DNA of 14,149 bases from positions 1 to 14,149 of the forward strand of contig JASAOO010002935.1 of assembly GCA_030849075.1 (NCBI GenBank), given 5' to 3'. A program made the translations under genes and the position numbers. The notes beneath the pieces are model-generated. The model did no database searches, was not told where the DNA came from, and was given only the letters and a program-made list of their open reading frames with translations. Positions 1 through 14,149 of this stretch are shown one piece after another. Position 1 is the stretch's first letter. Each line of letters begins with the position of its first letter. Source of the DNA: Zelonia costaricensis. Its lineage: Eukaryota; Euglenozoa; Kinetoplastea; Trypanosomatida; Trypanosomatidae.

Positions 1-516
1 TTTTTATTATTGTCACCTGTGCTTCTTCTTGCGCGCTGCCTTGATTCTCGAACCGGATTTACCTCCTCCTCGCATCTTCTCGTTTCCTTTTCTGGTGTGC
101 GTCTCCGCTCTCGTCGACTGGCCACCGCCACCACCACCACCCCTGCTTTTCTCCGTCAGCTCACTTTCGCACCTCGTTGCCCTCGCTTCTCCATTCCGCG
201 TTCGGCCACAGAGCACGACACGCGAGGTCCAGAGCCCCCCGACTCAGCAGCAGCACACGCGCACTGACTCCCCTCCCGATCCTCCATCTTGCTTCTATTC
301 CTAGCTCCCTTTCCTACCCCCCCCCTCCTCCTTTGGCAGCGCCCAGCCGAATCGGTACGTGCTCCACCTGCGCGCTCCCCGCCCCGCCCCCCTCCGTCTT
401 TTGCCTCTCTATTATTACTCGCCTTTTCCCCGCCCGTGTGTCTGTGACCGCTCGAGCTGACGCGGCTGGCGAATCTTGTTTTCCTGGGGGAACCGCCGCT
501 TTGCATTGAGGCCCTT

Positions 517-547
<31 letters not shown>

Positions 548-550
548 GTG
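517..550 (+). repeat. (TG)n microsatellite
   Basis: TG dinucleotides run 517-542 and resume after one CG at 545-550. Such tracts are common in Leishmania non-coding DNA. Confidence 0.9.
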
Positions 551-712
551 AGTAAGTCGTGTTGGGGAACTTCACTACCTTTTCTGGCTGTTTTCTCGGG
601 CTTCCTGGCACGCTCTGTCATCGGCATCTGTTCTTGTTGTCGTCGTTGGCCCTCCCTGGCTTCCGCCTCGTGGCTGTCCGCAAGCGTCCTCGTCGGCGTC
701 GTGGTTTTGCTC

Positions 713-734
713 GTGTGTGTGTGTGTGTGTGTGT
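713..734 (+). repeat. (GT)n microsatellite
   Basis: Eleven uninterrupted GT units are present. Confidence 0.9.
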
Positions 735-1142
735 CTGGCAGCGTGACGGGTGCACATAAATCCGCCCCCATCATCCCTCCCCTTCCTCTCTCTCTCCCTC
801 GAGCACGCTTCTTAGCCCTCTTCCGACTCGCATCCATTGCGCATCTCGTCATCGCCGCGTGCCGCGACTTGCCTTGTCTTCTGTGGTTTCGTTTTTCTCT
901 TGTGAGTTGTTGGATTTCTCATTGGCCACCATACTGATCTATTTCTTGATTGCTTGTTTCATTCGTTTTCTTCTTCTTCGCTTCACACGCGGACGCGTGT
1001 ACTCGTCTTTTTCGTTGTCGCTGCTGCATTTTTCTATCTTTCCTTTCGCCCCCTTTTTTTCCATCTCAGTGCGCGTCTGTTTGCTTTTTGTGTGCTCCGC
1101 TGGCCGAAGTGCGCGTTGCTCTTCAGCCTTGCCGCTGTCTAT

Positions 1143-1177
1143 TCTCCCCTCCCCTTCCCCCCCCCCCCAGCCCTCAG
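1143..1177 (+). promoter_or_regulatory. candidate distal SL acceptor pair (AG 1169-1170 and 1176-1177)
   Basis: A C-rich tract of about 25 bases runs into two closely spaced CAG triplets, followed by an A/C-rich stretch and a CA repeat. The composition change from pyrimidine tract to A/C-rich resembles a trans-splice junction. Use for the gene at 5414 would imply a leader above 4 kb. Confidence 0.3.
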
Positions 1178-1189
1178 AAAGACGCACGC

Positions 1190-1213
1190 ACACGCACACA
1201 CACATACACACAT
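1190..1213 (+). repeat. imperfect (CA)n tract
   Basis: CA repeats are interrupted by CG and TA steps. This is one of only two CA-oriented tracts in the window; nearly all other dinucleotide tracts are TG on the + strand. Confidence 0.8.
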
Positions 1214-1419
1214 TCACTTCCTCACGACCGAAAGACCCAATCTATTCCGTTCTCCCCACCCCTCCCCCTGCCCTCCGTGGTCCACGCTTTGATTCACCGT
1301 CATTCGTCGTCTTCCTCAACATATTGTTGTCTCCTCGCCTTCCCCCCTCCCTCCATCCCTCCCTCCCTCTCTTGCCCCGTTCACTGCCCTACGCCACACC
1401 TCGACCACTGCCGAACCCT

Positions 1420-1433
1420 AAAAAAAAAAAAAA
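1420..1433 (+). repeat. A14 homopolymer followed by a non-pyrimidine segment (1434-1500)
   Basis: Fourteen A residues interrupt a long pyrimidine-rich stretch and are followed by about 65 bases of balanced, A/G-rich sequence before the C/T bias returns near 1501. It could be a retroposon tail or a slippage product; no partner element is recognisable. Confidence 0.85.
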
Positions 1434-2476
1434 GAAGACTCACCAGTCGGGGCTTGCAAGAAACTGAAGCGCAGGATTGAGAATAAGACATCAAACACAG
1501 GACCTCTCCCCTCCGTTTCTCCTTCTTTTCTCCTCTTAGTTACCGGCAGGGTTCCTTCCTGCTTTCCCACGTCTGCGTTCCTCGTAGTGCCTCGGCGCAC
1601 CTGCTTCGCTTGTTTGTTTGTTTTCTTTCTCCGTGAGCTCCGCGTGCGTGCTTCCCACTTTCCCACTTTTTTGTTGTGCGTCGGTGTCTGTGCGTGACTG
1701 CGTGGTGTGTCTGTTGGCACAATCCGTTCTTACTTGATCTCCATTCGCACGTCGCATCCTTTTTTTTTCTTTTCTACCTTTCTCTCTTTTTTTTTTTACG
1801 CCGACGGCGACGTAACCTCGCGCGCAACCTTCCACGTAGACCCGTACCCCGCAGACACAGCTCCTCTGAAGCGTTGGGCCAGATCAGCTCTGATTGTTGC
1901 TCTGCATTTTCCTTTTTTTTTTCTCGCTTCCTCTTTTCTTCTCCGGTGACTGCGTTCGTCTCTGTGTGTGTCGATTGTCCGGCTCTTTTTTTTTCTTTTC
2001 CATTACTGCTCTGGGTAGCTGTTGGCGCTCACTGGCTGTCTTGTGACGGTGTCTTTCCTTCTCCACCTCGTGGTCTCTGACTCTCCTTTTTTTTTTCTCG
2101 GCCTCCGCCGCCTTCCTCTGTGGTTACCCCCCTTTTTTTTTGTCTTCAAGCAGTGGACGCTGCTGGTCGCTTCTTGTGTTCTTCTCGTGCTGTCTATCAT
2201 CTCTTTCGCTCTCTTTGCTGGATCATACTCGCGCCGTTCGTCATCAGCGCACACTCGCTTCTTGTGTCCGTAGTCAAGGCATCGCCACCACCCCCCTCCC
2301 CAGCCCCTCCCCCCCCTGCCGCCACGCCAACGCTCTAGAAAAAAAAAAGGGGCCCTTTCTGGTCAAGACAGTGCTTATCGCCGCTGCTGTTGCCCAACGC
2401 ATCCCTCGACTTTCTCGTTGTTTTTTTCTTTCATACTTCGCCTTTTTTTTTTTTTGTTTGGTCGCGTGTGAGTGCC

Positions 2477-2596
2477 TGTGTGTGTGTGTTTGTGTTTGCG
2501 CGTGTGTATAAGCTTTGTATCTCTAGCTGTGTAAACGGTAGCTGCCGCGCGCGCGTAGTACTTGTGTGTGTGTGTGTGTGAGTGTGTGTGAGTGTG
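2477..2596 (+). repeat. cluster of TG tracts (2477-2500 and 2563-2596)
   Basis: Two TG-rich tracts are separated by about 60 bases of mixed sequence that includes a GCGCGCGCG alternating run near 2546-2555. Interruptions within the tracts are GA, TT or CG, never a step creating ATG. Confidence 0.85.
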
Positions 2597-3054
2597 CTTG
2601 CCTATCGGTGCGCCCCTGCGCTTTCTCATCTTCCTCGCTTCCTTGTTTCACCGTGACGGGTTCCCTCTCACCACCTCGGGTTTTATTCTGGTTTTGCTTG
2701 CCTTTTTTGCCGGATCACCGTTCGTCCCTCTCCGTCTTCCTCCTCTCCCGCGCTTTCGTTCTTTCTCACTCTCTCTCTCTCTCCATCTCGTCTGTTCCCT
2801 CCTCCTTTCTGTGGTTGTGCCCCGCGTGCGCCTTCTCATCTCCAGTGAAGTCCCTTGTCCCTCATCGCTTTGTTGTCCTGCACAAACGTGCTCATTTATC
2901 ACCGTGTCGTGCTCCGCGTTTCCTTCCAGTCTTGACTGCTTTTTTTTTTTTTTTTGATTTCCCCTTTTCCCCTTTTTTTGTTGTTGCTGCCACCTTGACG
3001 CCACGTACGTGTGTGCGCTCCTCCTCTCTCTTCCCACCTTTCCCTCTTCCCCAC

Positions 3055-3082
3055 CTCACCCTCCTCCTTCCCCCCCCCTCAG
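3055..3082 (+). promoter_or_regulatory. candidate distal SL acceptor (AG 3081-3082)
   Basis: A long C/T tract ends in CCCTCAG at 3082 and is followed by mixed-composition sequence. If used for the gene at 5414 it would yield a leader of about 2.3 kb. It is as strong by eye as the proximal sites. Confidence 0.3.
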
Positions 3083-3446
3083 TGCTGTGAATTCTTGTCT
3101 TCGCCTTGTGTCATCGGGAATTCCGTGCTGACGACGAACTCGCGCTACTCCATCGCTGTAGTTTTCTTTCTGGTTTCGTCTGTTTCACCTTCTCGATCAA
3201 GAAGGAAAAAGCAGAAGAAACGAAAAAAAAAGCTCTCTCTCTTATCTTCGTGTTGCTTCCTGTGACTGTCTCTCGATTGCGCCTCGGCGTGCGCGCTTTT
3301 CCTTTCCATCTTTCTCTTGTGTTAAGCCTGTTCTGTTGCGCTTCTGCCTTTCCTCTCTTCCCCTCTTCCCCTCTTTCCCCCCTCCTCCTTCGTCCTCCTC
3401 CCCCCCCCCCCCACCTTTGCTGTTCCCCCCGCCCCATTCTGGTTTT

Positions 3447-3462
3447 AAGAGCTTGAGCTCTT
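3447..3462 (+). other. 16-base perfect palindrome, potential short hairpin
   Basis: AAGAGCT and AGCTCTT flank a TG centre. As RNA this can fold as a six-pair stem with a UUGA loop. It stands out because the surrounding C/T-rich leader has little self-complementarity. Confidence 0.7.
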
Positions 3463-3682
3463 GTCCTGCTTTTTTTTTTCCTTTCTTCCTCTCCTCCCCC
3501 GACCACCTCGCTAACCATTTTTTCGCTTTGTTGTTTGCTTTTGTGTTGAGCTCCTCTCTCTCCGCCCTCTTCTTTTCTTCGCTACGGATCGCGGCGCATC
3601 GGCGTCGTGCTTGTTTTTGGCACCCCGTACGCACGGTTGGAGAGCTTCACGAAGCAACCTACTCAACGTCTGCCGACTAGCG

Positions 3683-3747
3683 TGCAGGTACGTACTAGAG
3701 CTGCAGGCGTACGTGTCCACTGTGTGGCATTCGTAAAAAAAAAAAAA
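3683..3747 (+). other. mixed-composition block with short repeats and an A13 run
   Basis: TGCAGGTACGTA at 3683-3694 is nearly repeated as TGCAGGCGTACGTG at 3702-3715, and GTACGTAC at 3688-3695 is palindromic. An A13 run at 3735-3747 closes the block, after which the C/T-rich sequence resumes. Function is not recognisable. Confidence 0.6.
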
Positions 3748-4268
3748 GGAAACAGTGCTCGCTGACTGCTTCTCCTTTTTTCTACTTCTTATTTCCCACT
3801 CCATCGACTTCAGCGTCGCTCGTTTTCCCTGTGGCCTTGCTTTTGTTGTCTGTTTTGCCCTCCCGTTGCAGCCTTCCGCATCTTTCTTCCCCCCCCCTTT
3901 CGCTCTTACGTTCCGGTATATTCGCCTTTCGTGTCTTTTTTTTTCTTTTTGTTCTTCCCTGCCGACTCCCTGGCTTGTCTGCCCGTCTCGCACGCGCTTC
4001 TCCATCCTCCAGCCATTCCTCACTCCCCCACCCCACCCCTTCCACCCCCGCACCCGCAAACTCACGCACGCACGCCTGGACAACGACGAATAAACACGCA
4101 CACGAACCCTTCTCTCTCTCCCCCTTGTCTTCCTTCTCCCCTCATTCCTCCCCTTTCATTCGTTGGTGTATCACCATCTGTACGCGCCACCATTTTCTGT
4201 GTCGTCGTCGTCTCGCGCCCTTCACCCTCCCGCCGCGTGTGTGTCTGTTTCCCTCTTGCGTGTGTGCT

Positions 4269-4302
4269 TGTGTGTGTGTGTGTGTGTGTGTGCGTGTGTG
4301 TT
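4269..4302 (+). repeat. (TG)n microsatellite
   Basis: TG repeats run nearly uninterrupted, with one CG step close to the right end. Confidence 0.9.
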
Positions 4303-4492
4303 TGGCTTCTCTCGTTCCCACTTCTTTTTTTTCTCGCTTTCCCTCCTCCACGTCCTCTTGCCTTCTTTCTGTTTTTGATCCGACTTGGCCTCACGTGACG
4401 TGGTGCAGCAACACCTGGCGAGACTACCCGCTCGGTACGTGCCCTCTTCTGTGTCTATCTTATTTCTGTTTGTGGTGTGTCACCTTCGGCGA

Positions 4493-4515
4493 GTGTGTGT
4501 GTTTGTGTGTGTGTA
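4493..4515 (+). repeat. imperfect (GT)n tract
   Basis: GT units have one TT interruption and end in GTACGT. Confidence 0.75.
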
Positions 4516-4834
4516 CGTCTCTGCCTTTCTCTCTCTCCCCCGTTTTCGCTTTCCCCGTGTTTGTGATTGCCATTGTGTGTCCCTGAGCGCGGCCCCGGAC
4601 ACCCCGTCCTCCTCTCCCCCCCTCCCCCCCCCCTCGCCCCTCCCCCGCTCTCTCTTCTGTAGTTCTTTCTTTCGTTGACCACCGTACTCCTCTCCTGCCC
4701 TTTGCGTTTTCTTCTGTTCCTTCCTTCGTACTGGTCCGCCTCGTGGTTCGTGTGATCGACTTCCTTTCGCGTGGTGACTACTTCTTCTTTTTTTTAAACG
4801 TGTGTTTGTCTGATCTTGTCTACGCGTGGCGTTC

Positions 4835-4899
4835 GCGTCTCTTCTCTTCCTCCTTTTTTCCTCTTCTGTGAAAACAAAAACCCCCGAAACACACAACAG
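4835..4899 (+). promoter_or_regulatory. candidate SL acceptor (tract 4835-4867, AG 4898-4899) followed by A-rich leader
   Basis: A T/C tract runs to about 4867 and is followed by an A/C-rich stretch (4870-4920) whose first AG is at 4898-4899. The abrupt change from pyrimidine to A-rich sequence with CAACAG and AACAAC elements is typical of the start of a trans-spliced leader. It would give a 5' UTR of about 514 nt. Confidence 0.4.
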
Positions 4900-5007
4900 C
4901 AACAACAAAGAACAATCACCGCTGTCTCACTGGCACTCTCTTGTGTTTGTTCGCGATTCCCACTTCTTACTGTTGCATCCTCTCCATCTCCGCCGCGCTA
5001 CTCCTCA

Positions 5008-5041
5008 CTTCTCCCGCCCCCCCCCTCCCCCTCCCCCTCAG
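5008..5041 (+). promoter_or_regulatory. candidate SL trans-splice acceptor (polypyrimidine tract plus AG 5040-5041)
   Basis: An almost pure C/T tract of about 30 bases ends in CTCAG at 5037-5041. This is among the best acceptors near the gene and would give a 5' UTR of about 372 nt, of ordinary size, without any upstream ATG. In trypanosomatids the first AG after a long pyrimidine tract is usually the SL addition site. Confidence 0.5.
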
Positions 5042-5242
5042 CGTTTTCGCTCCTTGTCTTTCACTGTTGTCTTCTCCCCACCTCCACCACTACCAAACAT
5101 CAGCACCTCTCCCCTCCACCTCGCCCGACACCCTCTGCGCCATTTTTCCTCGTTTTCCTTACGCTTCTCCGTGCGTACTCCCTCCCTCCCTGTTCCTTTC
5201 CCCACTCTGCGCCGCACCTCCTTCTCCGTCCCGCTCGTACGT

Positions 5243-5298
5243 CGCTCTCTCTCTCCCTTCATTCCTGTTTGTTTGCGCGTGTCTGTGCTTGTGCTGAG
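5243..5298 (+). promoter_or_regulatory. candidate SL acceptor closest to the start codon (AG 5297-5298)
   Basis: A pyrimidine-rich stretch from about 5243 to 5275, with TG-rich sequence after it, contains no AG until 5297-5298. Use of this site would leave a leader of about 115 nt. Further AGs at 5351-5352 and 5369-5370 are weaker because no pyrimidine tract directly precedes them. Confidence 0.35.
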
Positions 5299-5413
5299 GA
5301 GCATCACTACACACGCACGGATCTCTGTTTGCCCTATCGCTGCTTCGCGTAGCGTTTACGCACTCCACAGGAAACACGGGCGCGTTCACGGAACCGCCAG
5401 CCCTGCAGAGCCT

Positions 5414-7126
5414 ATGTCGGCATCGCAGAGCGGCCAGTCTGCGTTGTGGCTCTCCTCACAGTCCCCCAACACCAGCAGCGCCACCGCAGCCTCCGACCCG
5501 AGAGCGCTTCATAGCAGCCCCAATAACTCCGGTGCCTCGCTCGAACGCAGCCGCGTCAACAGTTTCTCCACTACCGACACCGTTGCCGCACCGATGCACG
5601 CGTCGAGCCCCATCGCCACCACCGCCCCAAGCGGCGGCACCGCGGCGTCGACTTCCACCAGCGCGGTACGGCGCGACCCGACGCAGGCGACGATGGCGCA
5701 CGACACACACACCACCGTCGTTAACGCTCGACAGCAGGGCGACGAAGGACGGGCCGGCAACTCCGTGGTGACCTACCGCACCCCCGCTGCTCTGCGTCCC
5801 CGACTTGAGGCGGCGCCGCCGCAGCCGCCACAACGTCAGCAACAGCACCAACAGACGACGCCCATGACGCCGCCGAACGTTGGCGGACAGTCCGAGTTCG
5901 CCTTTGCGCGCGAGTCAGTGCCGTGCGTCGCCGACGTCTCGGACATCAGCACGCCCAATACGAACATCTACCAGCTCCGTGGTCTCCCCTTCGCGACCAC
6001 CGTGGATGACGTTAGGGCGCTTCTGGCCTCTGTGCCGGAGTACAAGCAGCTCGATGTCGGCTTCTTCGAAACCCACGAGTGCTCTGGCAATGCGTTTGTG
6101 GAGCTGTTCGACGACACGTACAAGGAAAATCTCATTGCCCTCAACAACTGCCGCATCGTCGTACCAGGCGAGTTCCGGCGGACGGCGGATGGACGAAAGC
6201 GGGAGCGCTACCTCGAAGTGTTCCCGGCTGCCATGGGCCGGCGGGAAAGCGTGCTGTATAACGACGCGCACTCGACGCCGCGGCGGGGGCCGCAGCGGCA
6301 GCCACGCCCGACGGCGCCGGCGGCAAACCCCGCGGCCCTCGGGCTCCCCATGATGAACCCGCAGCTGGACCCCATGAGCGGGTCGCTATCGTTTCTCTCG
6401 ACCCGGCAGGTGTTTCTCGTGGAGCAGCCTCAGCACGCACCGCCACAGCCGCAGGGCTTGCGCGAGGGTAGTGCGTGGCTCTACGTGCCCCGGCCGTCGC
6501 CAGTAACACTTGCAGAGCCTCGCCCCGCGCCGGTCGCCTCCTCGAGCTCGTCCCCGTCGCACTTCTCCGAAGTCTCACCCCTCTTCCACTCGCAGGACGG
6601 GACCTGGCCGACGTACTTGATGCCCACGACACAGCAGCAGTTTTCCCCACCAGGGGCGTACTATCCGCAGCAGCCACCACCGCAGCCGCAGCCGCAACAG
6701 CCGCAGTCGTACCTGCCCGCCTCCGCCCACCCCGGGCTGCTCCGCTTGCCCGCCTCGCTCGTTGGAGAACAAGCGGCGCCGACGCTGGTGCGCCTGCACG
6801 ACGGCGGCTGTGGCGCCAGCAGCACCTCGACGCCGCTGAACCTGTACCAGATTGTCAACTCGTACACCGTGCAGCAGCAACAGCAACATCAGCAGCACCT
6901 GTCGCCGCCACAGCATCAACCCCTGTCACCGCCGCTGTCGCAGTCGCAGTCGCAGTCGCAGTCGCAACCCTCCCTCTACTCTATCTGTGATGGCTCGTAC
7001 GTGCTGCTGCCCGCACCGGCGGCCCAGGCTCCGGCGCAGGCGGGCTACTACGTCGCCACATCGCCGGCACCGATCTCGCAGCAGCCGACGTTCTACTATA
7101 CCGGTGGTGGCGCGGCAACACTTTAG
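5414..7126 (+). CDS. RNA-binding protein with one hnRNP F/H-type quasi-RRM and long low-complexity flanks
   Basis: The predicted protein is 570 residues, ending at TAG 7124-7126. ATG 5414 is the first ATG on the + strand in the window, and composition changes from pyrimidine-rich to balanced, GC3-rich coding sequence close to it. Residues 1-183 are Ser/Thr/Ala-rich, then Pro/Gln-rich. Residues about 184-272 form an RRM fold of the quasi-RRM type: NIYQLRGLPF (184-193) in the RNP2 position, CSGNAFVELF (223-232) in the RNP1 position and ERYLEVF (264-270) as last strand. This trio matches hnRNP F/H, GRSF1 and ESRP-like domains, which lack the usual RNP aromatics and bind G-rich RNA. The C-terminal 300 residues are disordered-looking: Pro/Gln repeat 418-431, QQQQQHQQH 487-495, SQ repeat 510-518 and a Tyr-rich tail. 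No signal peptide or membrane segment is seen. It probably acts in mRNA processing, stability or translation; the specific role is unknown. Trypanosomatid F/H proteins are known mRNA regulators, but orthology is not established here. Confidence 0.93.
   Translation: MSASQSGQSALWLSSQSPNTSSATAASDPRALHSSPNNSGASLERSRVNSFSTTDTVAAPMHASSPIATTAPSGGTAASTSTSAVRRDPTQATMAHDTHTTVVNARQQGDEGRAGNSVVTYRTPAALRPRLEAAPPQPPQRQQQHQQTTPMTPPNVGGQSEFAFARESVPCVADVSDISTPNTNIYQLRGLPFATTVDDVRALLASVPEYKQLDVGFFETHECSGNAFVELFDDTYKENLIALNNCRIVVPGEFRRTADGRKRERYLEVFPAAMGRRESVLYNDAHSTPRRGPQRQPRPTAPAANPAALGLPMMNPQLDPMSGSLSFLSTRQVFLVEQPQHAPPQPQGLREGSAWLYVPRPSPVTLAEPRPAPVASSSSSPSHFSEVSPLFHSQDGTWPTYLMPTTQQQFSPPGAYYPQQPPPQPQPQQPQSYLPASAHPGLLRLPASLVGEQAAPTLVRLHDGGCGASSTSTPLNLYQIVNSYTVQQQQQHQQHLSPPQHQPLSPPLSQSQSQSQSQPSLYSICDGSYVLLPAPAAQAPAQAGYYVATSPAPISQQPTFYYTGGGAATL
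5963..6229 (+). other. quasi-RRM domain coding segment
   Basis: This segment encodes residues 184-272. The first strand carries LRGLPF, the helix after it reads ATTVDDVRALLASV, the third strand carries GNAFVELF, and the last strand carries RYLEVF. In hnRNP F/H-type domains the conserved Arg-Gly-Leu-Pro-Phe loop and the final strand take part in holding G-tract RNA. Only one such domain is present, whereas many family members have two or three. The domain boundaries are estimated from motif spacing, not from an alignment. Confidence 0.85.
6665..7123 (+). other. prion-like Gln/Pro/Tyr-rich C-terminal region of the CDS
   Basis: Residues 418-570 hold a PQ repeat (418-431), a Gln/His run (487-495), four exact CAGTCG hexamer copies at 6941-6964 giving an SQ repeat, and a tail with YY pairs (545-546, 561-562). 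Short aromatic clusters recur: NLYQIVNSYTV at 476-486, SLYSICDGSYVLLPAP at 520-535, GYYVATSPAP at 544-553 and FYYTGGG at 560-566. This is the composition seen in proteins that form RNP condensates; that behaviour is inferred, not shown. Confidence 0.7.
6941..6964 (+). repeat. (CAGTCG)4 hexamer repeat inside the CDS
   Basis: There are four exact tandem copies of CAGTCG, flanked by near copies (CTGTCG before, CAACCC after). They encode the Ser-Gln repeat at residues 510-518. The exact nucleotide identity suggests recent slippage, so copy number may differ between strains. Confidence 0.9.
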
Positions 7127-7153
7127 GATCGAAGGCGGCCGTGAAGAGCCACA

Positions 7154-7170
7154 TTTTTTTTTTTTTTAAG
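7154..7170 (+). promoter_or_regulatory. T14 run plus AAG just after the stop codon
   Basis: A run of 14 T residues starts 28 bases after the stop codon and is followed by AAG. It has the form of a polypyrimidine/AG acceptor, but no reading frame follows, so it is more likely a 3' UTR U-tract or a cryptic site. Confidence 0.35.
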
Positions 7171-7980
7171 TCCCCTCGATGTGAATGCGCCTTCACTAGC
7201 GCGCCCTGTTCTCGTCTGCGCGACGGTGTGTGCGCAACTGTGTGTGTGTATGTGTGTCAGTGAAGTGGGCGGTTCCTCCTTTTTTGTTTCGTGAACGATG
7301 TAGAAACGTGGACAGCGGGGATGTAAGTCGGGGCACGCCGCGCACGAGCAATCGGCTTTTTTGTGTCTGTTTTCCCGCCTCGTTGACGTTCCAGCGAGCT
7401 GTAGAGCGTCCTCAGCACGACGGAAGAGCGAGGGGAGGAGGAACGGACATCGACGCAAAAGGGAGCGCGCGGGCATGAGGCGCTTCATCGACGTCTGCTA
7501 TGCCACAGCACGTGTGGCCCGTCCGAGCTGCTCGTCCGCCGCGTGCAGCCGTCACGGGCTCTTGTTAAGGAGGAGGAGGGGGAAGGGAAAAGAGATTGGG
7601 AGGTGCCGCGCGTTGCCGCCCTCCCTCTTCTCTCTATTTCTGTTTTATGATACCTCCCCCCTCCCTCTGCTTGTCTTTTCCCTTCTCCTTCCTGTACCTA
7701 CTCCTCTGCCTGTCTTCTTCTTTTTTTTTCTGCGCCTTTTGGTGTTCCTGTGTTTCTCTATATACTCTGGTATACGTGTATTTCTACCCGCCTACCCGCC
7801 CCCCGCTCGTCCACTGTCTTCTTTTTCCTCCTCTTGCTCCTTCTTTTCGTTTTCTATCTCGTCTGTCTTGTGTGGCGGTCCCTTTTTTTTTTTCTGGTTT
7901 CCTTGTCGATTACTTTTCTTCTTTTTTTTTGGGTGGGGAGGGAGTGGCACACGCTGACACCTCTTTCCCTCTCATCCGAC

Positions 7981-8002
7981 GTGTGTGTGTGTGTGTGTGT
8001 GT
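7981..8002 (+). repeat. (GT)n microsatellite
   Basis: Eleven GT units are uninterrupted. Confidence 0.9.
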
Positions 8003-8291
8003 TCCTCTCTCACCCTTTGAGCCACCTCTCTCTCCCCCCTCGTTCCTTCCCCATTTTCAAGTGTTTCCTTCCACACCCACCCAACCCGTCTTGTCCAGGT
8101 ATAGCACACTTTTTTTCTTCCTTTTCTTTTGAGATTGGCTTTCGACAAGCTTCTTCCATGTGTGTGTGTGTATGTGCGTTCTCATCATATTCAGCAAGTT
8201 TCACTCTTCCCCATGCCCACCCCTGCCCTTCCCGCCCCCGCCGCTCCCTCCTGCCCCTCTCCTCCCTCGTTGCTTAGCTCCTCCATCTCCC

Positions 8292-8308
8292 TTTTTTTTT
8301 TTTTTTTT
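8292..8308 (+). repeat. T17 homopolymer
   Basis: This is the longest T run noticed in the window. The sequence after it (GATACTCACTGC) has no close AG, so it is a weak acceptor candidate. Confidence 0.9.
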
Positions 8309-8358
8309 GATACTCACTGCTGCGTAATCTTTCTTTTCTTTTCCTGCTGTGGTTGTCA

Positions 8359-8399
8359 CGTGTGTGTGTGTGTGCGTGTGCGTGCGTATGCGTGTGTGA
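8359..8399 (+). repeat. interrupted (TG)n tract
   Basis: TG repeats carry CG and TA steps, including TATG at 8387-8390. Confidence 0.85.
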
Positions 8400-8868
8400 T
8401 GATATTCTGACCTTTTCTTCTCTTCTTTTTTGTTTTGCCGCCGAGCGCGTGAGTCCGTCTTTCATCGATGTCTGTGTGGATGTTTGTGTCTTCGTGTGTG
8501 TGTATGTGTGCTCTCTTGCCACATCCTCTTTCTCTTTCCCTGCCTTGGTCACTTTTCTGACCGCCACTCTCCTGCGCTCTCCGTCTCTGTCTTCCGCGTA
8601 GTTTCATCCACTCGACTGCATGACCGAGGCGTCGCCTGCGCTCACCCATTTTTTCCTTTTTATTGGTTGCCTGCCGCACATCCTACTCGTTTCTTCGCGC
8701 CACTTTACTTTCGTTTTCGTTCTAACTTTGCTCCTATTGATGATGCTCATTTATCTCCAGAGACCATCGATCTGCTCAGGAATATACATCTATATACACA
8801 CCCCTGTATGCTCTCCCCTGTTGACTTGATTACTTGCTTTCGCCTCCTGTGACGCGTCGCGTGGTACC

Positions 8869-8914
8869 CGTGTGCGTGTGCGTGTGCGTGTGTCTGTGTG
8901 TGTCTGTGTGTGTG
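8869..8914 (+). repeat. (GTGTGC/GTGTCT)n TG-rich tract
   Basis: TG repeats are interrupted by CG and CT at regular short intervals. Confidence 0.85.
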
Positions 8915-9547
8915 TGGCTAGGTGAGTGCCTTCTTAGCCATCGCGGTGCTTTTTTTGGTTGTTGTCGGCTTGATTGTTTTCGCAGTTGTTGGCTTCCACT
9001 CTCTCTGTAGCTGTCTCAAGTGACTCAACCGTGTTCTCACCGTAACAGACCACCACCCACCTTTGGTTTCCTTTCCTTTCCTCTGCGTTGTACGTACTCT
9101 CCTATACCCCTCCTCTGCCCTTCCTGCACCTCCTCTCCGTCTTCCCACCTACCAGCGTGCGGCTTTACATGTCTCTCTCCACCGCCCGCTCCCTATTCCT
9201 CCTCTCCCATCTCAGTGCCTTCCCTCTTTCCCCTCTCCCCTCCCCGCACAACGTACGCTGTGTGGCGCGCCTCACTTCTTATCATCCTTTCACACGTTTT
9301 CCCGTCTTCCACCCTACTTGCTGTGCGTGCCCCCTGTTCCGTCATGCGCGCACTGCGTCTGCACTCGCCTCAACCTCCCCGCCCCCCCCCCTCTCTCCCT
9401 CCCTATGCACCAGGGGGCACCTTTATTGCCCCTCTGCTTGCTCCCCTTCACGCGCACCTTGCTTGCCAACCGCCACGCTGTTTCACGTTTTTGTTGTTGT
9501 TGTTTTCTTCTCGTCTCGTGTGTTCGAGTCGGAGCTGCGCAAACGTA

Positions 9548-9645
9548 ACAAAAAAAAAGCAGGAATAAAGAGCAAACACGAAAGCAAACCGACAAAGACA
9601 ATGAAGGACGTGTGCAAAAAAAAGAAAAAGAAGGACTGTGAAGAT
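9548..9645 (+). other. A-rich island in the 3' flank
   Basis: About 100 bases are A-rich with A9 and A8 runs and repeated AAAG/AAGAA motifs, between C/T-rich sequences. It includes AATAAAG at 9563-9569, although trypanosomatids do not depend on the AAUAAA signal. It may be a 3' UTR regulatory segment or a degenerate retroposon tail; neither is proven. Confidence 0.6.
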
Positions 9646-10635
9646 GCCGCCTTGTGCCCCTCTCACACCCGTGTTGTTCCGACTGCGTGTCCTTTCTGCA
9701 CCTCCAGGTGCCACCCTTCGACGCCGAACTTCCGCCTCATCCGTTCCGCTTAGGCTTTCCTTCTCTTCCCACCTTAAAAAAAAACACTGCACACACTATT
9801 TGTTTCCTCCTTTTTTTTTTTTCTCACGCACGTCTGCGCTCCCCCTCTCTCCCTGATGTGTCTGCATGCGTTCGCCTCTGCCCCCCCCCCTTCTTACTTC
9901 TCCCGCCTCCTCCAACCTTTGCATCGCTGAGAGAGAGAGAGAGAAAGAGACGCCATCTATAAGTGCATTCATGTACACATATATGTGTGTCTGTACCGGC
10001 TCACACCCCCGCCCTTTCCCCGTGACGTTCTCTTGATGGTAACAATTGAGGTCGTTCGGTATTGGAAAGCCGACCGGAGGGAAGGGGGGGGGCAGAGAAA
10101 AAGACTGGCGAGGTCAGCCGTGCGAGTTGGTGCCTGTCCCGGCACTTCGGCCTCCCTCCCTCCCTTCACCCTGGTGTCCCCGCGTTCTGTGCTCTGGCTC
10201 CCGCTCCCCCTCCCTCCGTCTCTCCTCCTTCTCGGCACCTCACAAGCACGCCGGAACGCACTCAAACGCGCCCTGGGCCCAAGTTCTCTACTGCTCTTCT
10301 CCCCTTCTGTTAACGCACTCCGCTTTGTTTTCTGCTTTTGTCCTCACGCACGATGTGCCTTCACCGATCGTCTCTTACTTCCGGGTGTGTGTGTGTGTGC
10401 GTGGCTTTGCGTCTGCGAGTACTTCACCTAATTTGTTTTCTCGTCCAAACTTTTTGTTGTTGTTGTTGCTTTTCTTCTCCAGCATCTCTTTCCTCACCTG
10501 TCCAATGTCCTCCTTCCTTCTCCGCTCAGCCGACCCACATTCGCCCGCCTCTTTCGCATTCTCAGCACCTCTCCCCTCCCCCCTCTCCCAACCCTGCTCC
10601 CTCAACCCAACTGCATCCTAGTGTGTAGCTGACGG
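9646..10635 (+). other. C/T-rich non-coding region with a GA repeat and a 14-base palindrome
   Basis: No gene is seen. It holds a GA tract at about 9929-9948, a perfect palindrome ACACATATATGTGT at 9975-9988, a nine-G run at 10084-10092 within a purine patch (10068-10120), and a GT tract at 10385-10399. C/T-rich sequence with scattered candidate acceptors makes up the rest. Confidence 0.6.
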
Positions 10636-10649
10636 CGCTGCGGCAAAGT

Positions 10650-10671
10650 GGGGTGGGGTGGGGGGGAGGGG
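10650..10671 (+). other. G-quadruplex-forming motif (G4-T-G4-T-G7-A-G4)
   Basis: Four G runs separated by single bases lie in a short purine-rich island. Single-base loops make this a textbook parallel quadruplex motif, in RNA or DNA. Further G runs follow at about 10690-10710. Confidence 0.85.
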
Positions 10672-11520
10672 CCTTGATAAACCCAAAGAGGGGAGGCGGG
10701 TAGTCGCGAAAAAATACATTTTTCTCTTCTTGTTGTGTTCTGTAGGGAGGTGGACGTTCTAGCTGCTTTCATACTTGTGTGTGGCCGCAGAACTCGCAAT
10801 CGGCTTTCCCTATAAAATGCACACACAAAAACAACCGAAAAACACAGCAGTGCGGAAGGCGGAAAATGCCAGCTTGTATATGGCACCTTTGGCGCCTCTC
10901 TCTTTTGTTCTTTTCGGAATCCTGCAACTCTCATAGCTGATGTCATGTGTGTGTGTCTGTGTGTTGGCTCTGGCGACCGACGACTCATGCGCTTCTTCTT
11001 TGCTGCTTCGCCGCCGTAGCAGCAGCCTCAGCAACGTTGACCTTGTCTTCTTCTCTGTAAACTACTCTGGTCCTCGTTTTCTTGCCTTCCGACTCCGCTG
11101 ACGAACCGCCCTGTCCCCACACTTCTTCACGCCCTTCCTCTTCTCATATACGCCGCCGCTATAAGCGGAGCTCTCCTTACCCCAAACTTTACCATCGCCG
11201 ACGGCCTCTTTTTCATTTTTCTTTCTCTCCTGCTTCCGCGTGTGTCCCGCATCGTGTCGTGGTGCGCGTCCTTATTTCTGTGTGCGCGCTGTTTCCATCG
11301 TGACCGTCTCTCGGGTGTACCACCCCGTGCTTTGTGATCCGTGTTCTTTGTGTGTCCACAGCGACAGCTCGCACCGATGCCGTTGTCGTTTTTTTTTTTT
11401 TTGGTGGTTTGGCCTTTCTTCGCGTCCCTGCCCTGCGCCTACTCCCTCGCATGCATCAGCTGCACTCGCCCAACCGCCTCTGCCTCTTTCCTCTTTTTTC
11501 TTGTTTCGCGCCCGTTTTAG
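10672..11520 (+). other. non-coding region, first part of balanced composition
   Basis: No gene is seen. From about 10680 to 10880 the base composition is balanced and A-rich, unlike the C/T-rich surroundings, and includes TATAAAA at 10811-10817 and CA-rich sequence. From about 11040 it is C/T-rich again, with a T14 run at 11389-11402. The balanced part could be a degenerate SIDER-type retroposon, which are common in Leishmania 3' UTRs, but I do not recognise a signature. Confidence 0.5.
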
Positions 11521-11523
11521 ATC

Positions 11524-11620
11524 GTGGCTAACATAGGAAAGGGGGATGGGGGGCCAGGGCAAGAGAGGAAACAAGAGCGAGAGAGAGCGCGTGAGGGACG
11601 AGTGCAAGTGATGAGGACAG
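11524..11620 (+). other. purine-rich island with G runs
   Basis: About 95 bases are dominated by A and G, with G5 at 11541-11545, G6 at 11548-11553 and G3 at 11557-11559, then GAGAGAGAGCGCG. It is sharply bounded by C/T-rich sequence on both sides. Confidence 0.75.
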
Positions 11621-11823
11621 ACGCATTCTCACCTATACATCCGCTTCTGGGCTTCGTGTTTTCGTTTTTCTTCTCTCTCCGCTGCCCATGCCCGTGCCCC
11701 ACCACCCACTACCTTCTTTTTTTCTTTTTGTTTGTTTCTTCCGTGTTCCCTCATCCTGTCATTGCCAGCCCCCGATCCTACGCTGTTTGCCGTTGCAACT
11801 GCTACAAGGAAAAGAAAGGCAAC

Positions 11824-11842
11824 GCACACACACACACACACC
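11824..11842 (+). repeat. (CA)n microsatellite
   Basis: About nine CA units follow a short A/G-rich stretch (11806-11820). This is one of the few CA-oriented tracts on this strand. Confidence 0.85.
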
Positions 11843-11903
11843 TGCTCCCCTCTCTTAGCCGCGTGGCCCCTCCTCCCTCCTTCCTCCGCCATGGAAGGTT
11901 ACT

Positions 11904-11945
11904 GGGCGTCGGGGGAGAGAAGGGGGAAAGGGGTACGGGGGGGGG
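11904..11945 (+). other. G-quadruplex-forming cluster of five G runs
   Basis: G runs of 3, 5, 5, 4 and 9 bases are separated by loops of three to six bases. It is the second G4-capable cluster in the 3' flank. Confidence 0.8.
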
Positions 11946-12037
11946 CATGCTCTGCACCGACTCCTCGTCGAACTCTCACGACCCCCACGTTGTCACAACG
12001 AAAATAAAGAGAATTTTGCTGCTGCATCGACACGTGC

Positions 12038-12040
<3 letters not shown>

Positions 12041-12069
<29 letters not shown>
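12041..12069 (+). repeat. (TG)n microsatellite
   Basis: Fourteen TG units are uninterrupted, preceded by CGTA, which creates an ATG at 12040. Confidence 0.9.
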
Positions 12070-12071
<2 letters not shown>

Positions 12072-12137
12072 GTCCTCTGTTCTCTCTGCGTTCCATCGTA
12101 TACGTGTGTTGGCGACAACGAGGAGGGAGCTCAAGGA

Positions 12138-12157
12138 GGGAGGGGTGGGGGTGGGGG
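12138..12157 (+). other. G-quadruplex-forming motif (G3-A-G4-T-G5-T-G5)
   Basis: Four G runs with single-base loops lie inside a purine-rich stretch (12116-12200). This is the third strong G4 motif downstream of the gene. Confidence 0.85.
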
Positions 12158-12724
12158 TGAAAATGCTAAGGGGTGTGAACAAGGTGAATGGACAAGATAA
12201 AAAAGCGCACAGGTTCTCTCCGCCCTCCGCCACCTTGTCGACATCTGCGCCTGATCTCTCCTTCCCCTGTCTTTACGTTGCCTTTTTTTTTGCCGTTGTT
12301 GTTGTCCTCGCTGACCTCTTCTCCCCCCTTCTCTTTCTCCTATCTGTGCATGTCCGGTGCCGCTGTTCTGCAAGTGTGTGCTCCCTCTCCCCCCCCTTCT
12401 ATTTGCCTCTCCCACGTTTTCTTTTGAACTCCTTGATGTTCCCACTCCCCCTCCCTCGCTTTTGGTGTGCGTACGTCGCCGCACCACCGTCGCACGCCTG
12501 GTTTCCGTTGTTGTCTTGTGGATGAGTGGCTCCACCCCCTCTCTCTTGTACTCTTTCTTTCTTCGTTCGTCAGGGCGCCCATCCTTCTCCTCTGCCGCCG
12601 CCTCCTTTCCCCTCCCCACCCACCCCCCACAACCCGGCCTCGGCGACTGCGCTGACTTCAACGTGGACCTCACCAGTGCACGCCTGGTGATCCTCTGCAC
12701 GGACGCTCCTCTGTGGTTTCCCCT

Positions 12725-12756
12725 CCCTTCCCCTCTTTCCACTTTTTTTTTTTCAG
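12725..12756 (+). promoter_or_regulatory. candidate SL acceptor (T11 run, AG 12755-12756)
   Basis: A C/T tract ends in an 11-T run followed by CAG. The form matches a trypanosomatid trans-splice acceptor. No coding frame follows inside the window. Confidence 0.4.
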
Positions 12757-13428
12757 CCCCTCCCGGACTCGCCGCCTTTGCTTTTCCTCCTTTTCGGTGC
12801 GTGTGTTTTGTTGCTTGTTTGTATGCGCCTCCTCCTGTTGACGTGTCTCGCCGTACGCGTGTGTGAGAACTCTCCTTGGTGTATTATTTCCTGGTTTGCT
12901 ATTCTGCGGCTGGCTTTTTTTTTCTGCGTGTTTTGTTCCCTGTTTTCTCTTCTCCGCTATCCTCGTTGTTCACCCCGCTTACTCCCCCGACCCCGACCCC
13001 CGCTTCTTCTCGCCCTCCACGTGTTCTGTAGTGGCCCCTGAACTCCTTGGAAAGCTCGCGCTTCATCCCTGCGCCCCGTCGCTGTACTCTGTAGCTTTGC
13101 GTTCTGTGTCTGTGAGTGTGTATGGGTGTGTTCTTCGTCTTCTTCCCCGCTGCTGCTGCTGTTCTAGCGGCTGCCCTAAATCTGCGTCTGTGTACCCCTC
13201 CTTTTTTTCATTTGTGCCGTGTACCACCACCGCCCCTCACTTCTTCTTCTCCCAGCTCCATAGCACACACCACCACCACCACCACCAGGTCTTCCTCCTC
13301 TGCCTACGCACGCGTTCTTGGGCACCACCGTCTTCCTGCCCTCCCCCTCCCTCCTCCTCCTACGATCTCTCTCTTCCCTTTACTATCTGGCCTTCTCTCC
13401 GCCTAACACTCGGCACCGTTACCGCTCT

Positions 13429-13462
13429 CTTGTTTTTTTTCTTTTCTTTGTCTTCCCTACAG
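13429..13462 (+). promoter_or_regulatory. strong candidate SL acceptor (AG 13461-13462)
   Basis: A T/C tract of about 30 bases, interrupted only by two single G residues, ends in CTACAG at 13457-13462 and is followed by mixed-composition sequence. This is one of the cleanest acceptors in the window. The next ATG is at 13534, opening only a 78-codon frame without convincing coding character, so the real downstream gene may lie past the right edge. Confidence 0.45.
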
Positions 13463-13533
13463 ACTAGAGGCTTCCTGGTGCGCGAGTTCACGTACGTGTT
13501 GATCACTTCCGTTTTCTCCTTTTTTTTTTCTAA

Positions 13534-13558
13534 ATGCCTTCGACGTCACTGTTTCTAG
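13534..13558 (+). repeat. imperfect direct repeat, copy 1
   Basis: The segment starts ATGCCTTCGACGTC and ends TTTCTAG. It matches the segment at 13833-13858 at about 21 of 26 aligned positions. Confidence 0.6.
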
Positions 13559-13696
13559 AATGCTCGCTTGTTCCCTCCTCTTCCACCATTTCCCGCCCGC
13601 ACCCTGCTGGCGTATGGTGCACCGCATGTTTCAGCTCCGTTGCCTTCCCTTCTTCTCGCTCGCTTACCTCTGTGCTGGGCCGCTGTGCGTGCAGGC

Positions 13697-13830
13697 GTCC
13701 AGTCAGTGCGGAGAGGGAGGAGAGCAGCAGGGGAAACACACAAAAAAGACAGAGAAGAGTGGGGGAGTGAAGAGGGAGGAGAGAGGAAGTAGACAGTGAT
13801 CGGGGAAGAGGGCGGGCCGCAGAGCTGTAC
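13697..13830 (+). other. polypurine island
   Basis: About 130 bases are nearly all A and G, with repeated GGGAGGAGAG-like units, in an otherwise pyrimidine-rich strand. Such mirror-like polypurine sequence can form triplex DNA; that is inference from composition. Confidence 0.8.
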
Positions 13831-13832
13831 TT

Positions 13833-13858
13833 ATGCCTTCGATGTCTCCATTTTCTAG
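13833..13858 (+). repeat. imperfect direct repeat, copy 2
   Basis: The segment starts ATGCCTTCGATGTC and ends TTTTCTAG, related to copy 1 about 300 bases upstream. Confidence 0.6.
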
Positions 13859-14149
13859 TGTGTGCGTGTGTGTGTGCCTGTGTGTATTTGTGAGCGAGCT
13901 CGATGCGCGCGCTCGTGCGCGCATGTGCGTGTCTACGTGTAGAAACCAACACGAATGACGCCGCATTCTCGTCGTTCAGTGGGCCCCCCCCTCACCCCTC
14001 CCTTTCCCCCATTCGATGCCCTGATATGCGGCTACCTTTTCTTCTCTCTCTCGCTCTTCTGCTTCGCCAGGCGCTTTCTGTGTGTTCTGCAACCCACTGT
14101 CGACTATTCCACTCTCTTCCCCCCCCCCCTCCAGCTCCTCCACCACCCA
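13859..14149 (+). other. TG-rich tract then C/T-rich end of window
   Basis: A TG-rich tract (13858-13893) is followed by GCGC-rich sequence and then C/T-rich sequence. A candidate SL acceptor with a C-rich tract and AG at 14133-14134 lies 15 bases from the right edge, hinting that the next gene or its leader begins just outside. Confidence 0.5.
14112..14134 (+). promoter_or_regulatory. candidate SL acceptor at the right edge (AG 14133-14134)
   Basis: A C/T tract of about 20 bases ends in CCAG. Its downstream context is cut off by the window end. Confidence 0.35.

Follow-up and report, generated by a model that had tools for sequence, protein, structure and literature searches.

A trypanosomatid strand without ATG over at least 5.4 kb upstream of an RNA-recognition-motif gene: a probable 5' leader purged of upstream AUGs

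In a window of 14,149 bases from a trypanosomatid genome, the sense strand upstream of a gene for a 570-amino-acid (aa) protein with an RNA recognition motif (RRM) contains not a single ATG over 5413 nucleotides (nt). The earliest ATG of the + strand, at position 5414, is the start codon of the gene. The window is the entire contig C125, one of the 755 contigs that make up the 28.67-Mb assembly. We consider it likely that the mRNA of the RRM protein has this region as its multi-kilobase spliced-leader 5' leader, scanned by ribosomes and with every AUG removed by selection. The original prediction for this DNA had likewise proposed a very long leader kept free of upstream AUGs (uAUGs). This is still the best reading, and similar AUG-poor strands exist in the same genome, but the leader keeps the status of a predicted one.

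Loss of one triplet from one strand

Our recount of positions 1–5413 confirmed that the + strand has no ATG before position 5414. Dinucleotide-preserving shuffles (1000 runs) gave an expectation of 27.7 ± 4.4 ATG, with a range of 15–42. Shuffling inside 200-base blocks, which preserves the local composition, gave a similar value of 26.2 (standard deviation 4.2, minimum 16, 300 runs). Markov models of order 2 and order 3, trained on the 3' flank of the gene (7127–14149) and run 300 times each, predicted as many as 49.2 and 50.1 ATG, with minima of 31 and 32. The Poisson probability of finding none is ~1e-12.

ATG was the sole zero among the 64 triplets in this region. The next lowest counts were those of AAT and ATA, with 10 each, while TGA occurred 45 times and GAT 24 times (10 and 6 times in the first kilobase, in line with the predicted rate of 6–10 per kb). 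The loss affects the sense strand only, because the antisense strand of the same region, read as CAT, contained 61 ATG compared to 48.9 expected; the prediction had called CAT common. Likewise, the 3' flank, where about 60 ATG had been estimated, holds 64, which is 1.25 times the expectation. Hence, there is no depletion 3' of the gene, and this flank serves as an internal control. The claim that the depletion concerns one triplet on one strand, stops at the start codon and does not follow from composition is thus borne out by the 64-triplet count and the shuffles.

The absence of ATG is evenly spread. Expectations for the three successive parts of the region were 11.6 (1–1500), 8.6 (1501–3500) and 7.7 (3501–5413), and in each of them the count was zero. 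ATC was enriched (61 compared to 41.9 expected), and the near-cognate triplets CTG, GTG, TTG and ACG were, relative to expectation, not below the level of the 3' flank. Both observations are expected if selection acts on the recognition of AUG. Since the ATG-free run touches the left end of the contig, 5413 nt is its minimum length. The local cumulative expectation counted from the left end reaches three ATG at position 561, which puts the lower 95% bound on the length under constraint at ~4.85 kb.

A restriction to one strand and one triplet that stops at a start codon is the pattern predicted by translational scanning. In our favoured explanation, positions 1–5413 would form the 5' leader, or most of it, of the mRNA of the 570-aa protein. 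The polycistronic pre-mRNA would be trans-spliced at an acceptor near or to the left of the left edge of the window. The 43S complex would then load at the spliced-leader cap and scan linearly for ~5 kb until it meets its first AUG, at 5414. If an upstream AUG arose anew, it would divert scanning ribosomes, lower the amount of a dose-sensitive regulator and hence be selected out. As the distal part of the region is as clean as the proximal part, a large share of the protein would have to come from distally spliced isoforms. Translation of this regulator is probably held back or timed by its long leader.

Alternative explanations and opposing evidence

The main rival explanation is a series of nested leaders. 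Many alternative trans-splice acceptors would produce leaders of ~300 nt to more than 5 kb, of which the shorter, dominant forms make most of the protein, and purging would extend as far as the minor isoforms matter. We regard this as rather unlikely. The 154,046 trans-splicing sites mapped in Leishmania major (PMC4538839) and the finding that 31.9% of genes have several isoforms in L. donovani promastigotes (PMC12978572) agree with nested leaders, as do 19 candidate acceptors, defined by a loose and non-specific polypyrimidine-AG rule, in positions 1–5413. Yet, selection on minor isoforms should spare the distal ATGs, whereas the distal 1.5 kb (0 of 11.6 expected) is as clean as the sequence near the gene (0 of 7.7).

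Alternatively, the cause might lie outside translation. Candidates are a bias in mutation or replication, a nuclease or binding factor that recognizes a specific sequence, and an origin from repeat-like spacer. The sense strand of 1–5413 has few A and G and is of low complexity, C/T- and TG-rich, and strands of similar composition elsewhere in the genome also lack ATG. However, the 3' flank of similar composition exceeds its ATG expectation, the antisense strand is normal and the run stops at the start codon. Moreover, the matches listed between this region and other parts of the genome are simple repeats only. ATG-free runs that recognizably lie inside or opposite an open reading frame (ORF) were all shorter than 1 kb in the 91,809 bases that we sampled from the same genome; runs of several kilobases in such places would favour this explanation. 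It therefore appears very improbable.

Even less probable is an upstream coding sequence that fixes the ATG content, be it hidden genes or an N-terminal extension that starts at a non-AUG codon. The coding sequence (CDS) is open in its frame back to at least position 4826, and an ORF at 3336–3677 on the + strand showed a sub-threshold resemblance to the Pfam family DUF4229 (17.9 bits, with a cut-off of 27). Against this, none of the 25 listed ORFs of at least 100 aa lying wholly inside 1–5413 scored above the Pfam cut-off, and DUF4229 was the only resemblance among them. Their translations are of low complexity, the 3' flank contains chance ORFs of comparable length (231 aa compared to 251 aa), and a stretch of 5.4 kb that is methionine-free in all three frames would be implausible for coding sequence. 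Finally, chance or base composition, to which the low content of A and G might point, is refuted by shuffles that never gave fewer than 15 ATG (dinucleotide) or 16 ATG (block) and by the Poisson probability given above.

Several observations weigh against a scanned leader of multi-kilobase length. First, upstream ORFs (uORFs) were reported for 1122 transcripts of L. mexicana (PMC4599935) and for 1092 (22%) of the 5' untranslated regions (UTRs) of Trypanosoma brucei, which were assigned for 4909 genes (PMC3973304). With uORFs this common in trypanosomatids, the avoidance of AUG is not absolute. On the supporting side, expression of a luciferase reporter in T. brucei rose 7-fold once an upstream ATG was removed (PMC3973304, citing earlier work). 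Taken together, the reporter and the uORF frequency indicate that upstream AUGs cost expression, yet are tolerated in a fifth of the genes. Second, a survey of 478 eukaryotes found that uAUG depletion was greatest near the CDS (PMC7889888), whereas the depletion in our window is uniform. Third, the loose acceptor rule is not specific, since it gave 30 candidates in the 3' flank in addition to the 19 upstream of the gene. Fourth, the predicted folding of the leader did not deviate from that of shuffled sequence (mean z of −0.28, standard error 0.24, 27 windows of 200 nt), and a special lack of secondary structure was therefore rejected. Folding energies per base were −0.17 kcal/mol for the leader, −0.35 for the CDS and −0.21 for the 3' flank, and we attribute the weaker value of the leader to its C/T-rich composition. 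Fifth, when an orthologous leader was sought in viral and prokaryote contigs, the 28 and 41 pattern matches included none from a relative.

The remaining opposing points concern the comparison with other loci of the same genome. Runs of 746 and 957 bases (piece L020) and of 806 bases (piece L040) without ATG occur within or opposite long ORFs, and runs below ~1 kb thus prove little. The three longer examples described in the next section, on contigs C401, C523 and C90, were chosen as the longest ATG-free runs of a non-random sample and are putative leaders. On the minus strand of C90 in particular, 0 ATG were found in 1510 bases where 7.2 were expected, but the whole piece contained 15 ATG compared to 15.1 expected. 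With a normal count for the minus strand of the whole piece, C90 is a weak case.

Similar strands and ordinary genes in the same genome

The genomic sample consisted of 37 pieces, from which five loci of the window itself had been excluded. Fourteen of these pieces entered through simple-repeat matches to the window, and two others (L041, L042) extend one of those. Because the sample is non-random, it provides no genome-wide frequency.

The minus strand of C401:15898–21144 (pieces L025, L041 and L042) had a single ATG in 5247 bases, compared to 27.5 expected. Its first 4360 bases had none (24.7 expected), and the lone ATG opens a uORF of 8 codons. The antisense strand was normal, with 44 ATG compared to 43.2 expected. 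A comparable pattern was found on the minus strand of C523:39052–42097 (piece L033), where 2914 bases without ATG (14.9 expected) faced a normal antisense strand (20 compared to 20.9 expected). In this case one boundary is visible, as the ATG-free run begins right after four ATGs in 133 bases; for the whole piece, the minus strand contained 4 ATG compared to 17.0 expected. C and T make up 63–66% of the ATG-free strands of C401, C523 and C90. Family searches for RRM, zf-CCCH and kinase domains had no match on C401 or C523 among the matches listed, which in one search were the best 117 of 190 candidates.

The minus strand of C401 is the strongest candidate for a second multi-kilobase AUG-purged leader, which we consider probable; C523 comes next, and C90 is weak. 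Long leaders purged of AUG are thus probably present elsewhere in this genome, at a small number of loci. The original prediction had pictured a single gene. Its account of the gene in the window is the best reading, but with C401 and C523 showing a similar pattern the gene is not an isolated oddity.

Ordinary genes provide a further comparison. The 37 pieces contained 18 gene-like ORFs. Eight of these were counted; in another eight the piece ended before an upstream ATG was reached, and two, on the + strand of L038, were shadows of genes on the opposite strand. The start of each control gene was taken as its first in-frame ATG, and the ORFs of L016 and L028 leave their pieces on the 3' side. 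The ATG-free stretches before the starts of the eight genes measured 182, 241, 283, 395, 534, 587, 610 and 761 nt. Combined, their composition predicts 18.2 ATG, compared to ~8 for neutral runs. This is a modest sign that ordinary leaders may also be purged, with the length of the run tracking the length of the leader. The control runs are about as long as the 5' UTRs recorded in Leishmania, and they lend weak support to a long leader in the window. By this rough measure, the predicted leader is ~7 times as long as the longest of the eight control runs (6.4 times by the 95% bound).

A broader reading is that this genome may hold a class of genes with multi-kilobase leaders that are purged of AUG over their full length. 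On these the 43S complex would keep scanning in vivo for 5 kb or more, and such scanning would be the main route to the start codon of the regulator. We give this about even chances. Distal AUGs would be harmless under shunting, internal entry or a short main isoform, and a purged leader of at least ~4.85 kb would thus be evidence of productive scanning over that distance. If so, the ATG-free run could serve as a ruler by which leader lengths in trypanosomatids are read from sequence, and it would address two open questions, namely the range of the scanning ribosomal subunit and the benefit of kilobase-long leaders. Trypanosomatids lack gene-by-gene control of transcription. The pattern could mark a class of trypanosomatid genes controlled through the leader, which could be found in unannotated genomes.

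The gene, its host and known long leaders

Table 1. Coordinates of features in the 14,149-base window
Feature	Position	Strand	Remarks
ATG-free sense strand, predicted 5' leader (whole, or at least the last ~4.85 kb)	1..5413	+	0 ATG vs 27.7 expected; cut by left contig end
(TG)n run in leader	517..554	+	common to many other genome sites
(TG)n run in leader	2559..2599	+	common to many other genome sites
(TG)n run in leader	4259..4304	+	common to many other genome sites
CDS, 570 aa, quasi-RRM (LRGLPF...)	5414..7126	+	opens with first ATG of + strand
RRM core, residues ~185–272	5966..6229	+	AlphaFold2, alignment, profile match
3' flank, C/T-rich, normal ATG content	7127..14149	+	64 ATG vs 51.3 expected; internal control

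The 570-aa protein likely carries a divergent quasi-RRM of the hnRNP F/H type, and is likely to bind RNA. Its family profile matched RRMs of hnRNP F (E = 1e-4), RBM5, hnRNP H and ESRP1 in the PDB. For the single sequence, the Pfam match to RRM_1 stayed below the cut-off and was obtained only with the excised domain. An AlphaFold2 model from seven aligned sequences was confident only at residues ~181–290, where the predicted local distance difference test (pLDDT) was mostly 70–85 per block, with one block at 51. This region has the predicted order beta-alpha-beta-beta-alpha-beta. Outside the RRM confidence was low, and the mean pLDDT of the whole protein was 40.6. All ATGs in the initial 592 nt of coding sequence (5414–6005) are in-frame (5414, 5594, 5693 and 5864), and the earliest out-of-frame ATG is at 6006, although these numbers are small.

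Six homologues (P0001–P0006) were found: P0001, which is 90% identical in the RRM region and encoded on a contig of 2602 bases, JKF63_02304 of Porcisia hertigi, CGC20_10040 and LDHU3_33.4010 of L. donovani, and two more (49–52%). A search of this genome with the 570-aa protein gave a single match, and the L. donovani protein likewise retrieves only the gene at 5414–7126 there (34% identity overall). The two are therefore probably orthologues. The protein resembles RBP10 of T. brucei and further RNA-binding regulators of trypanosomatids in being a putative regulator of the single-RRM type (PMC9284731). An identity with RBP10 was rejected, because RBP10 of L. infantum is LINF_230015000 and the homologue found here is LDHU3_33.4010, which lies on a different chromosome as judged by the locus names only.

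Other features of the window are few. Among the matches listed for positions 1–5413 (the best 40 of 70 candidates, with common words skipped), the rest of the genome shares only short stretches of simple repeat, and a duplication of the region was rejected. Of the 14 loci drawn into the sample by such simple-repeat matches, two (L025 and L033) have kilobase-long ATG-free strands. The window contains no Rfam family at the gathering score and no tRNA. None of the 21 listed ORFs of at least 100 aa in the 3' flank had a Pfam match. The 7 kb 3' of the gene could be a 3' UTR of great length or a stretch poor in genes; L. donovani has recorded 3' UTRs of up to 8267 nt (PMC12978572).

The original prediction had placed this DNA in Leishmania, which is probably not correct. 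Within the genus Leishmania, conserved proteins are expected to be nearly identical. The guanine deaminase on contig C740 of this assembly, however, is only 81–82% identical to that of Leishmania species (L. braziliensis 82%, L. donovani 82%, L. martiniquensis 81%), compared to 83% for Novymonas, 81% for Porcisia, and 80 and 75% for two Leptomonas. Judged by this one protein, the host is probably a trypanosomatid of the Leishmaniinae other than Leishmania.

The predicted leader had been called far longer than usual, which is true in comparison with typical 5' UTRs but not with the longest on record. In L. major, primary sites give a median length of 233 nt; across all mapped sites the median is 547 nt and the maximum 7252 nt (PMC4538839). 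In L. donovani, the mean is 479 nt and the maximum 7744 nt in transcripts annotated from direct-RNA reads bearing both spliced leader and poly(A) (PMC12978572), and the median in L. mexicana is 242 nt (PMC4599935). The term uORF is absent from the main texts of PMC4538839 and PMC12978572, and AUG is absent from that of PMC12978572. Given the maxima of 7252 and 7744 nt, length alone is not unprecedented. A leader of more than 5 kb thus falls inside the range recorded for close relatives, in which 5' UTRs typically measure a few hundred nt, whereas the length proposed here is deduced from sequence alone.

Candida albicans is a fungus and is not known to have spliced-leader polycistrons. Its genes UME6 and WOR1 have leaders of 3041 and 2978 nt that lower translation (PMC6034079, citing other work). 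They share with our window a very long 5' leader on the gene of a regulator, in their case of cell state. The fungal leaders are shorter, and a repressive effect of the predicted leader in the window would be hypothetical.

Complete purging of AUG over several kilobases has a more general counterpart in the depletion of uAUGs found across eukaryotes in the survey of 478 species (PMC7889888). The proposed likeness is purifying selection against uAUGs on the sense strand of leaders; the difference is that the loss in our window is total and uniform across at least ~4.85 kb. In that survey, 5 of 20 protists had as many uAUGs as expected or more, and the words kinetoplast and Leishmania do not occur in its text (PMC7889888). 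Among the open-access papers listed in our literature searches, none was seen to describe a multi-kilobase, fully AUG-purged leader, although examples may exist in subscription papers or supplementary tables. Multi-kilobase 5' UTRs and a general depletion of uAUGs are already published; complete purging over such a length would be what the present window adds.

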